Assembly (NCBI GenBank): GCA_000310025.1
Contig: FN649754.1
Location: forward strand, 162,753 to 207,991
Direction: 5' to 3'
DNA length: 45,239 nt
DNA from: Ectocarpus siliculosus
Taxonomy: Eukaryota; Sar; Phaeophyceae; Ectocarpales; Ectocarpaceae
The notes beneath the pieces are model-generated. The model was given only the letters and a program-made list of their open reading frames with translations, was not told the DNA's origin and did no database searches. Shown here one piece after another: positions 5,210 to 8,623 of the stretch (position 1 is its first letter; each line of letters begins with the position of its first letter). Both the position numbers and the translations under genes were made by a program.

Positions 5210-5270
5210 ATGGTAAGCGTGACCGCTGCTGCTACTACAGCAGCAGCAGTAGTTCAAGCAAGAAACACGC

Positions 5271-5360
5271 CGCAATTGAGACACAACAGACAACAACACA
5301 CGCACGCACACACGGCACATCGCAATTGAGACACAACCGACAACACACACACGCACACAT
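5271..5360. repeat. 50-bp tandem duplication, CA-rich
   Basis: CGCAATTGAGACACAAC occurs at 5271 and again at 5321, each followed by a (CA)-rich tail with ACGCACACA. This gives about 1.8 units of 50 bp and abuts the left end of the tyrosine-recombinase element. Confidence 0.8.
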
Positions 5361-5603
5361 AGGAAGGTTTGTTCGAAGAGCAGATAGAATAAACTGGTGT
5401 TTATTTTGTAACAGTCGAATTAGAATTTGGCTTCATTTTCTATCGGAAACCCAGGGTCACGGTGTTTGGATTTATTATTGTAGTCTATAGGTGGGGATGT
5501 CATTCCGTGATCGAGTCCACGCAGGGGCTGTAGCAAAGTCGGGTAACGTGTGAGAGCTACAGAGCGCGTGAAGCAACGGAAGGACAGCAGCAGCCGCCTA
5601 ACG
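5361..5603 (+). repeat. Split direct repeat A1
   Basis: 243 bp, beginning AGGAAGGTTTGTTCGAAGAG and ending CAGCCGCCTAACG. It matches A2 (8051-8293) base for base at an offset of 2690, apart from one T/C difference at 5368/8058. Confidence 0.95.
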
Positions 5604-5681
5604 TCAGATATTTCCGCCGAAGATAGGAACTTGTAGAGCACTCTAACAGCAGATCCAGGCGCGCGATCGACCACGCTCACG

Positions 5682-6772
5682 ATGAAGAGGAAAACAAGTG
5701 TTCCCGCAACGCCGCCCTGACGTTCGCCCGCCGCCTGCCGCCGGTTCGCTGCTTATACGACTCCAACCGCGACCAGATGCCGGCACGGGCCTCCACGCAG
5801 AGCGGCAGGGCTGCGGCCGGGCAAGCAGGGCGAGGTCGGGCGGCGACACCCTCGACACCACGCACGAGGTCTACCGCGCGACCGGTGGCGAGCTCGACGG
5901 CTCGCCCCTCGACGCGGAGCGGGTCACGTACTCCCGCGAGGCGTCGAGCGGTATCCTCGTCGCGAGGGACAGGGACAGGCACCCGCGGTGACCCCCCCGC
6001 TGACGAGACTGAGCTCGCTCCTCTCCGCGGGCTGGTGGACGGCCTGAGGGAGGAGCTGCAGCGGGAGCGCGACGAGGCTGCCGGCGATCGCCAGTAGCTT
6101 CAAGCATCGATCGACGACCTGATCGCCGCCCAAGCAGCAGGACCTGGCCTTTAGGGGGAGGTGCAACTGGTGGGCACAACCGCCCCACCACCGGCATCTC
6201 GGGCCCCCGCTGTACCCAGCGCCGAGGCTGCTAAGGCTGCGGCAAAGGATAGGGCGCGGATGCAGGGGGACCTCCGCTGGTTAAAAGCGTGGCTCATCCT
6301 CGGACGGCCTCCGGCAGTTGCAAAACTGTCGGAGCCGAAGTGGCAATCCTTGCCTCGCAAAGGCGTTCTGGTGTCAGAGAAAGTGGCGGCATCGCTCGAC
6401 ACGCTCTCAAACTTCCGGGTCGAAGACCGTGGTCGCAACGTTGGTCACGGCAACGGGGGAGGGGGTGCGGAGGAGAGGCGCGCGCCGCTGGCGAGGGCGG
6501 CGCGAGGCCCACAGCCGCTGATTTCTTCACCCACGGGAAAGACAAATAGAGGTGCGGGCTCTCCCGCGTGGCGGGGGGGGCCTACCTCGGTTGGCAGCGC
6601 ACATGCGGTCAAATCGAACGGCAGCACGCCGGCAATCAGCAGGTTCAGGACCTGGGACAGGCAGGACAGGACTCTGTTACCAACGTCTTGGCATCCAGCT
6701 CGTCGAGCACTCGGTTGTCTAGAAGGACTTGCACGCCAGGCTTCAACTCTTGGTGCACGTTTCGGAGGCTGA
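5682..6772 (+). pseudogene. Gag-like ORF of the tyrosine-recombinase element (interrupted)
   Basis: An ATG at 5682 (MKRKTSVPATPP) hits a stop after 12 codons. The main frame 5777-6772 is basic and Ser/Thr/Arg-rich, then forms a predicted coiled coil (RGLVDGLREELQRERDEA), and is broken by TAG at 6095-6097 and TAG at 6152-6154 within an otherwise continuous heptad-like stretch (SIDDLIAAQAAG). After that come KAAAKDRARMQGDLRWLKAW and a Gly/Arg-rich region. Position and composition fit the ORF1/Gag of Ngaro-type elements, but no zinc knuckle is visible. The frame runs into, but is not in phase with, the recombinase. Confidence 0.6.
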
Positions 6773-7734
6773 CGGAGAAGCCCAAGTTTCTAGGGCAACG
6801 TGCCAGGGGCCTTCATGTGTGGGAGTTGATAGACTTCGTAGCCTGGTGTTTCGAGTCTGAGGGTAACCTAGCGAGTACAATATCCGGAAAACTCACGGCT
6901 GTGCAACATTTTCATACTTGTAGGCTGGAAGCTTCGGTCGAGCTAGACTTGTCGTCTCCGATGTTGAAATGTGCGCTAAGGGGGATGGCGAGGAACCACG
7001 TGGCTATGGGGACGGTACGCCGTGTGCGCCTGCCTGTGTTATGGCGTATGCCGCTGGACGGGGAAAGCGCAAGGCAGAACTGGGGGGAAGGGGGCAGAGT
7101 GATGTGGCTGTGTCTGTGCCTGTCCTATCTCTTCATCACACGGTCTGATGAGGTGTTCGCGAATGACGCGGGCAGGGTGCATGAGGCACACCGTCTTACG
7201 AGGGTGGACAAATCATTGTTTGCCGACGGGACGCAACTAGACTTTAGTCACTGTCGTAGAGCAGACCGTGTCGAAATGAGGTTTAGAGGGCACAAGGCCG
7301 ATCAAGAGCAGAAAGGCAACATACGGGTTCGTACGCGAGACGAAGTCACCGGACCGCAGTCAGGTGTGAGAGCACGCGGCGGCGCGGTGGCTCTTGTGGT
7401 GGAGCTATTGTCGTGTCATGCGACATTGCCTGACTCCGCTCCGTTGGCTCCGTACCGTAGTGGAAGAGCAGTGAGAGTAGTGAAGTATAGTGCTGCCCTC
7501 CGTGCAGTAAGAGAAGTGGTAGCAAAGTCGGGGCGTAACCCCCAGGAGTACGCGTTGCACTCGTTGCGAATTGGAGACGCGACGGCTCTTGCATCGGGCG
7601 GAGACATCGCAGAACGAGTGATTCAGAGAGAAGGGAAGTGGAGGTGGAATGCCTACAAGCCGTATGCGCGGAACAACGTAGAGGATTCGCGGCGAGTGTC
7701 ACGGAACTTACAGACGGCAGCAGGATTGTATTGA
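6568..7734 (+). CDS. Tyrosine recombinase (DIRS/Ngaro/Crypton type)
   Basis: The 388-codon frame contains a SAM-like core-binding segment (STRLSRRTCTPGFNSWCTF, about residues 47-65) and a catalytic domain with the expected constellation: Arg192 in FITRSDEV, His331 and Arg334 in HSLRIGDATALASGG, Trp358 in REGKWRW, and the probable nucleophile Tyr366 in AYKPYARNN (Tyr363 is the alternative). It would cut and rejoin DNA at the B|A circle junction and target. The catalytic part is uninterrupted and ends with TGA at 7732-7734. Oddly, the frame opens after a TAG at 6547-6549 and has no ATG before Met132 (6961). Translation of the full domain would therefore need fusion, frameshifting or splicing from the Gag-like frame, which fits an internal deletion junction near 6550-6690. 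Confidence 0.87.
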   Translation: MAGGAYLGWQRTCGQIERQHAGNQQVQDLGQAGQDSVTNVLASSSSSTRLSRRTCTPGFNSWCTFRRLTEKPKFLGQRARGLHVWELIDFVAWCFESEGNLASTISGKLTAVQHFHTCRLEASVELDLSSPMLKCALRGMARNHVAMGTVRRVRLPVLWRMPLDGESARQNWGEGGRVMWLCLCLSYLFITRSDEVFANDAGRVHEAHRLTRVDKSLFADGTQLDFSHCRRADRVEMRFRGHKADQEQKGNIRVRTRDEVTGPQSGVRARGGAVALVVELLSCHATLPDSAPLAPYRSGRAVRVVKYSAALRAVREVVAKSGRNPQEYALHSLRIGDATALASGGDIAERVIQREGKWRWNAYKPYARNNVEDSRRVSRNLQTAAGLY

Positions 7735-7811
7735 GACAGCCGGGGGAGGGGACCGTATGGGGAACGCATAGTTGAGTTATTCGGTAGTCGTCCAGAAACT
7801 GACCTCGATGT

Positions 7812-8050
7812 GGGTGTTGTAGAATGGTGTGTACCATTTGAGGACTTGGTCAGTTTTGGGACTCCTGCGGTTGCAGTCGTAGTCCCCCGGCTAGTATTTA
7901 TGGGGAGAGAGATGGATTTGTAAGAGTTGACGCCGGCCTTCGCAGCTAACGCGGCCGGAGAGACGATGAGCGTTTCGTGCGTCTCTCTCCCCAACACGTA
8001 GCCTAGAAACCGAAGAAATAATGAAGCAATTCGAAAGAAAACAAAATAAA
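7812..8050 (+). repeat. Split direct repeat B1
   Basis: 239 bp, beginning GGGTGTTGTAGAATGGTGTG and ending ACAAAATAAA. It equals B2 (8385-8623) at an offset of 573 with one A/C difference near the right end. It contains a perfect 11-bp inverted repeat, GGGGAGAGAGA (7902-7912) and TCTCTCTCCCC (7982-7992). Confidence 0.95.
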
Positions 8051-8293
8051 AGGAAGGCTTGTTCGAAGAGCAGATAGAATAAACTGGTGTTTATTTTGTA
8101 ACAGTCGAATTAGAATTTGGCTTCATTTTCTATCGGAAACCCAGGGTCACGGTGTTTGGATTTATTATTGTAGTCTATAGGTGGGGATGTCATTCCGTGA
8201 TCGAGTCCACGCAGGGGCTGTAGCAAAGTCGGGTAACGTGTGAGAGCTACAGAGCGCGTGAAGCAACGGAAGGACAGCAGCAGCCGCCTAACG
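8051..8293 (+). repeat. Split direct repeat A2
   Basis: Second copy of A1. It starts immediately after the last base of B1, giving the diagnostic B1|A2 junction. Downstream, a 91-bp spacer unique to this place separates it from B2. Confidence 0.95.
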
Positions 8294-8384
8294 CAGTAGC
8301 GGCGGCAGTTTAGAAAATCCCGCCCTCCCATCCCTTTTCTTTCGAAGGTGGGGGCATAAGTTCAGGAGTATTCGGTATCTAGTC

Positions 8385-8623
8385 GGGTGTTGTAGAATGG
8401 TGTGTACCATTTGAGGACTTGGTCAGTTTTGGGACTCCTGCGGTTGCAGTCGTAGTCCCCCGGCTAGTATTTATGGGGAGAGAGATGGATTTGTAAGAGT
8501 TGACGCCGGCCTTCGCAGCTAACGCGGCCGGAGAGACGATGAGCGTTTCGTGCGTCTCTCTCCCCAACACGTAGCCTAGAAACCGAAGAAATAATGAAGC
8601 AATTCGAACGAAAACAAAATAAA
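8385..8623 (+). repeat. Split direct repeat B2 (right end of element)
   Basis: Second copy of B1. Host flank begins at 8624 with GCATGC and an AT repeat. The same hairpin-forming pair GGGGAGAGAGA/TCTCTCTCCCC is present. Confidence 0.95.

Follow-up and report, generated by a model that had tools for sequence, protein, structure and literature searches.

The subject of this analysis is a tyrosine recombinase (YR) element located at positions 5361-8623 of a 45,239-nt stretch of the Ectocarpus siliculosus genome, G000:C29:162753-207991, hereafter referred to as the window. In the family to which this copy belongs, and in a second family, the segment encoding reverse transcriptase and RNase H (RT-RH) has been lost recurrently and to the exact base, at junctions compatible with GT...AG. 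It is probable that the window element is a deleted, Ngaro-like copy, and that RT-RH was lost through optional splicing, retrocopying and amplification in trans. The broader proposal, to which we lean with somewhat less assurance, is that RT-RH forms an optional intron that has been conserved, with Gag and RT made from unspliced RNA and a leader-YR product from spliced RNA; retrocopying of the latter would repeatedly create gag-YR elements. Recurrent, intron-like loss of RT-RH looks to be new. The genome searches described below covered the 189-Mb genome (492 contigs).

RT-bearing siblings of the window copy were located by comparing the matches of a Gag probe with those of YR, the two lying more than 2 kb apart. 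A reading of the window made earlier from its sequence alone (the sequence-only reading) had envisaged full-length relatives with RT-RH between Gag and the recombinase, and these were found. L021 and L022 carry A1, Gag, RT-RH, YR, B1 and A2, all in one orientation; L022 also has B2 and is complete, while B2 was not found in L021. Their A and B repeats are approximately 92-97% identical to those of the window copy. Gag is 542 amino acids (aa) long in L021, where it contains the motif C-x8-C-x4-C-x3-H, and 564 aa in L022. RT-RH (690 and 768 aa, respectively) has a YVDD motif, and YR is 392 aa. The RT and YR open reading frames (ORFs) are 56 bp apart in L021 and overlap in L022. No methyltransferase was matched by Pfam in 10 RT ORFs, although a divergent domain could escape detection. 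By their repeat plan, RT-RH, YR and the lack of a detected methyltransferase, these elements are classed as Ngaro-like split-direct-repeat YR retrotransposons. As regards the longer RT-less copies, six-frame Pfam searches of L001 and L007:1100-4602 revealed no RT, and none of 150 listed RVT_1 matches (of 1041 candidates), compared by eye with the list of YR matches, lay inside a listed element.

The body of the window copy aligns to L022 as three blocks, the gaps corresponding to 690 bp of gag and 2.05 kb of RT-RH. The RT-RH junction of the window, at genome site C29:169387-169413, is widely shared. A 27-mer across it (≤2 mismatches) was found at 107 genome sites, and 10 sites matched a 31-mer placed on the unbroken 3′ boundary, so that RT-less copies outnumber RT-bearing ones by about ten to one in family 1 as judged by junction sites; these counts rest on short probes and include partial copies. 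The junction was identical in the window and 13 RT-less loci (L013 with one substitution), and also in L041, L042 and L043 (the last with one substitution), and the RT-less copies are situated in different genomic flanks. The microhomology at this junction, GCAGGT, allows seven registers, one of which is CAG|GTGTGG...TGGCAG|GTTCAG; GT...AG is thus one of several registers that the microhomology permits. Among 10 RT-bearing copies examined, the donor stretch is present in 7 and the acceptor stretch in all 10.

It was of interest to consider whether this loss occurred more than once. The RT-less copies form two groups with different gag deletions, the L001-type, which includes the window copy, and the L007/L015/L017-type. 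A single RT-less clade was rejected by the approximately unbiased (AU) test on YR (p=8e-5; 18 v 8 rows) and on the gag tail plus YR (p=0.0004; 16 v 7 rows), and gave p=0.033 on the N-terminal part of gag (15 v 6 rows). L025, L026, L027, L014 and rows below a set length were left out of these trees. The base situated 9 bp to the left of the junction is T in the RT-less copies L007, L015 and L017 and in RT-bearing L021, L022, L024, L036 and L038; it is A in the other RT-less rows and in RT-bearing L040, and G in RT-bearing L023. Taken together, the flank trees and this base indicate that the same loss occurred twice or that recombination moved it. According to the latter explanation, a single loss in family 1, caused initially by splicing or by ordinary deletion, was spread across lineages by recombination or gene conversion. 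The junction is indeed identical in both RT-less lineages, and recombination between copies would confuse the trees, in which L040 shifts its place between the gag-tail and YR analyses. We nevertheless regard this explanation as unlikely, for it conflicts with the flank trees and with the T/A difference at the base just described, and it does not account for family 2.

If splicing is responsible, the homologous bases should also mark the loss of RT-RH in other families. A second family, family 2, includes an RT-bearing copy, C315, whose RT is 52% identical to that of L021 and whose YR is 58% identical to that of the window. A family-2 probe across the homologous acceptor site was used, and 40 of 174 candidate matches were scored. 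Twenty-one of these span the site, and 19 begin at or after it, the latter comprising 12 family-1 RT-less copies and 7 others. The match in C183 begins at probe position 353, the junction being 354/355. Relative to C315, C183 lacks exactly 2063 bp, so that RT-RH is missing at the bases homologous to the family-1 junction, with flanks 97-98% identical on both sides. Its join, AAG|GTGGGA...TGGCAG|GAACAA, shares only AGG and has one GT-AG register. The ORFs of C183 encode a 496-aa Gag and a 422-aa leader-YR protein. No terminal repeats of C183 were detected in the 7.6 kb inspected, so this copy may be incomplete. RT-less genomic copies were seen less often in family 2 than in family 1. Joins were also seen in L045 to L048, and these may represent one older, shared event.

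These results bear on a second alternative, in which RT-RH was removed a few times by ordinary microhomology-mediated or template-switch deletion and the products were then amplified in trans, with no splicing involved. The microhomologies of 6 bp (family 1) and 3 bp (family 2) fit such deletion, and family 1 offered 70 possible deletions with microhomology of 6 bp or more, counting those in which each breakpoint lies no further than 300 bp from its end of the segment. Other internal deletions in these elements are of this kind: RT-less copies L003, L006, L009 and L012 have internal deletions of their own, and 10 other deletion types examined show 0-2 bp of microhomology and no GT-AG register. 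(Splicing was accordingly rejected as the origin of those deletions, none of the 10 types having the register.) Plain deletion must, however, have struck the same homologous base pair in families only 52% identical in RT, leaving in each a GT-AG register and YR in frame with the leader. For family 2, the same distance limit and a minimum microhomology of 3 bp give 4,851 possible deletions. With so many alternatives, a chance hit on the homologous bases appears unlikely, approximately 1 in 4,851 if all were equal. We therefore give ordinary deletion only a small share of our confidence.

From the DNA junctions and frames, we infer the optional-intron steps as follows. RT-RH would be flanked by working splice sites, and its splicing would yield a leader-YR message. 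The spliced RNA would sometimes be reverse-transcribed and integrated, producing RT-less copies, to which RT would then be supplied in trans for amplification. Further losses in the window copy comprise gag sequence, 4.46 kb of the 5′ region including the A1 end, and a 22-bp part of the leader. The reading frames were compared by coordinate arithmetic, in which the segment was subtracted and the frame of the leader of the RT ORF was set against that of YR. Both frames were readable in 9 RT-bearing copies from three families, and in 8 of these subtraction brings YR into the frame of the leader: 6 of 6 in family 1 (L021, L022, L023, L024, L036 and L038; L040 was unreadable), 1 of 2 in family 2 (L026), and L025 in family 3. 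The RT motif itself is in another frame in L023, L024 and L036.

A number of observations weigh against splicing and are gathered here. Splicing is inferred from DNA, and the predicted sites look weak by eye, with donors GTGTGG and GTGGGA and an acceptor, TGGCAG, that is not preceded by a clear pyrimidine tract; the letters of the acceptor are, moreover, partly fixed by W-Q codons. Since microhomology of at least 6 bp is found in only 70 possible deletions, a hot spot could have struck the family-1 junction twice, and recombination between copies could spread a single loss of RT. Family-1 copies are closely related, so the agreement in frame counts as about three independent observations. The leader and YR of family-2 L027 are out of frame after subtraction, and L024 and L025 each have a later YR motif that is in a different frame. 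In family 2, five of the seven other non-spanning probe matches were examined; the same join in L046, L047 and L048 (65-81% identical) was read by eye, and that of L045 is degenerate. As regards the identity of the RT, Pfam RVT_1 gave a sub-threshold E value of 0.018 for L021 and matches in 4 of 10 RT rows, RT proteins had no match in PDB, and the motifs in the RT ORFs that we take to be of the DIRS-type RT and RNase H were recognised by eye.

In the recombinase of the window, the catalytic Arg, His-x-x-Arg, Trp and Tyr reported in the sequence-only reading were all located in the ORF, as R198, H337-x-x-R340, W364 and Y372, together with K249 (numbering of ORF 6550-7731; window positions 7141, 7294, 7558, 7567, 7639 and 7663 for the six residues in order of their numbers). 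A profile of 10 YR rows gave 17 matches in PDB, all Cre-type (16 Cre, 1 Tre) and all weak (E 0.006-0.16), and a single-sequence Pfam search of YR matched no recombinase family. No stop was present in 320 YR codons of the family-1 rows compared, as projected on the L021 codons with indels relative to L021 ignored, and L006 YR carries one extra base. NG86 dN/dS between the two RT-less groups was 0.28-0.61 (calculated without transition correction). The absence of stops and these ratios suggest that YR may have stayed under constraint in the RT-less groups. A 1341-aa ORF around YR in L014 was rejected as an artefact of a run of N in the assembly.

Such constraint, together with the large number of RT-less copies, could be taken to favour a third explanation, in which the element is DNA-based and Crypton-like, has split repeats and needs no RNA to move; the sequence-only reading had raised an RT-less, Crypton-like new class as one of two options. 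This idea does not survive the finding that RT-bearing siblings have the same ends, and the window YR ORF contains no Met before aa 138. We consider it very improbable. The other option, a fresh internal deletion derivative mobilised in trans, is right in kind but stands only in part. Siblings align on either side of the gaps, and no other copy has the 5′ junction, but the loss of RT is not fresh, being present at 107 sites and in two lineages. The refuting case named in that reading, one copy of its kind together with a full-length sibling from which it differs by a simple deletion, applies to the 5′ gap only.

Comparison with known systems places these elements closest to Ngaro. The Ngaro plan is A1-[ORFs]-B1A2B2, and copies without ORF1 have been reported (PMC8547959); Ngaro is told from DIRS and PAT by the absence of a methyltransferase (PMC4157794). 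Split repeats (in the window and L022), YR, the single orientation of gag, RT-RH and YR, the lack of a detected methyltransferase and the lack of a clear target-site duplication are all shared. What differs is that RT-less copies outnumber RT-bearing ones and that RT-RH is absent at an exact GT...AG junction. The Ectocarpus genome contains 15 Ngaro families with 3893 copies, amounting to 2.45% (PMC12477816), and the present family may already be catalogued in the library of that study. Splicing of DIRS or Ngaro RNA is not mentioned in the passages retrieved by term from PMC12477816, PMC8547959, PMC3266345, PMC3783388, PMC4157794, PMC6681497, PMC5633606 and PMC9210276, a scope outside which the original Ngaro papers lie. 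PAT-like elements share split direct repeats and YR, but are counted within the methyltransferase-encoding DIRS group (PMC4157794), and no methyltransferase was found here. SIRE, the short, non-autonomous form of VIPER (PMC6681497), is similarly a deleted derivative of a YR retrotransposon; it retains only short VIPER ends, whereas the present copies retain YR and part of gag and have had the RT segment exactly removed. Cryptons likewise have YR without RT, but are DNA transposons (PMC3212892), whereas here there are RT-bearing siblings and split repeats.

Spliced Gag RNA is known from the long terminal repeat (LTR) retrotransposon copia. In BARE, RNA splicing makes a subgenomic Gag message, and a different, uncapped RNA pool is copied (PMC3735527); in the present proposal, it is the spliced RNA that would be copied and then integrated. 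The pregenomic RNA of hepatitis B virus is spliced, and spliced genomes occur. The splicing of BARE Gag RNA and the spliced genomes of hepatitis B virus thus provide parallels for the proposed mechanism. Hepatitis B virus lacks a tyrosine recombinase and is not known to have given rise to a lineage of integrated copies that is amplified in trans. If the optional-intron proposal is correct, it would answer the question of how a 3′-located recombinase can be expressed in a YR retrotransposon, and it would explain why RT-less YR elements can outnumber RT-bearing ones. It would also define a concrete and repeatable way in which a retrotransposon becomes a YR-only element, including a possible route for the birth of the Crypton type.

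The features of the window copy are listed in Table 1.

Table 1. Features of the YR element in the window
Feature	Position	Strand	Remarks
A1, left terminal repeat, 3′ end truncated	5361..5603	+	last ~24 bp gone via private deletion
Private deletion junction	5601..5605	+	4463 bp absent relative to L001; 2-bp microhomology; one genome site
Gag N-terminal remnant, frame broken	5627..6427	+	93% identical to L022; ORF list
690-bp gag deletion junction, zinc-finger region removed	6426..6428	+	common to L001 and L004; microhomology of 2 bp without a GT-AG register
Gag tail and RT-ORF leader	6428..6642	+	sequence comparison; 22-bp loss at 6632/6633
Tyrosine recombinase ORF	6550..7734	+	394 aa stop to stop; first Met = aa 138
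RT-RH removal junction CAG|GTTCAG	6642..6643	+	lacks 2054 bp present in L022; 6-bp microhomology, with GT...AG as one register
B1	7812..8050	+	repeat comparison
A2, full length (earlier 8051-8293 plus 25 bp)	8051..8318	+	repeat comparison
Spacer separating A2 and B2	8319..8384	+	repeat comparison
B2, right end of element	8385..8623	+	repeat comparison

The window copy is a non-autonomous, internally deleted derivative and is in itself unremarkable. Its private 5′ deletion, defined against the 7.7-kb copy L001, has its left break within A1, and a 41-mer spanning this junction (≤3 mismatches) occurs at one site in the genome. The 22-bp loss was unique to the window among the 13 other RT-less loci compared and shifts the leader out of the YR frame; it was read directly from the sequences of these loci. 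In view of this loss, the gag loss and the 4.46-kb 5′ loss with the end of A1, the YR of this copy is probably not expressed. The outer ends of A1 and B2 are retained, and the copy might be moved in trans. The Gag of RT-bearing copies (L021 and L007 Gag were examined) contains a CCCH-like finger, which the 690-bp gag deletion removes from the window and L001-type copies.

The repeat comparison confirmed the architecture given in the sequence-only reading, A1-ORFs-B1A2-spacer-B2, with one base differing within the A pair (243 nt; 5361-5603 and 8051-8293), one within the B pair (239 nt; 7812-8050 and 8385-8623), and B1 directly adjoining A2. The length of 243 bp assigned to A holds for the matched pair, not for the full repeat: most other copies have an A of 263-268 bp, A2 of the window ends at about 8318, and what was formerly called spacer begins with 24 bp that are part of A. 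Because A is longer in most other copies, the end of A1 in the window must have been removed by deletion. The search for other copies that had been suggested returned at least 43 matches for A, 40 for B and 64 for the 2.2-kb body, counts that are lower bounds, with approximately 40 candidates scored per search. So many matches denote a repeat family rather than a chance arrangement.

Within copies, 13 of 15 A pairs differ at 0-1 bases (the exceptions being L017, with 3, and the partial L012, with 5 of 96), and 15 B pairs differ at 0-4; the mean differences between copies are 9.4 for A and 4.1 for B. The similarity of A1 to A2 was considered as proof of RNA-mediated copying and found not to be decisive, the nearest other copy often being equally similar. 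No consistent target-site duplication was observed in 13 copies having both ends. At G000:C30:3632657-3633229, A is followed by 91 bp and then by B alone, an arrangement that resembles the product of A1 x A2 recombination, the counterpart of a solo LTR. Immediately to the left of the window element, at 5266-5345, CA-rich DNA contains a direct repeat of 30 bp whose copies are 90% identical.

Several features of the longer copies and of other families were also observed. L001-type copies contain an interior segment of approximately 1.1 kb (L001:2706-3842) that is 87-89% identical at 15 other places listed (G000 C16, C2, C25 and others), and which represents captured, nested or shared DNA. Two of these places, L019 and L020, were examined; in L019, sequences resembling A and the spacer give weak matches on the opposite strand. 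Degenerate tandem-repeat arrays are situated in the 5′ region of elements of both families (L001:1505-2515, L007:2360-3750 and C183:32250-34160), with periods of approximately 87-251 bp in L001 and L007. In L027 (C460:210500-214800), RT-RH and YR form a single open frame of 1112 aa; they are in different frames in its close relative L026. L028-L034 represent RT-bearing families that are more distant; six of these seven were aligned and are 36-42% identical to L021, and L030, L031, L033 and L034 have a downstream ORF for YR that is 250 aa or longer.

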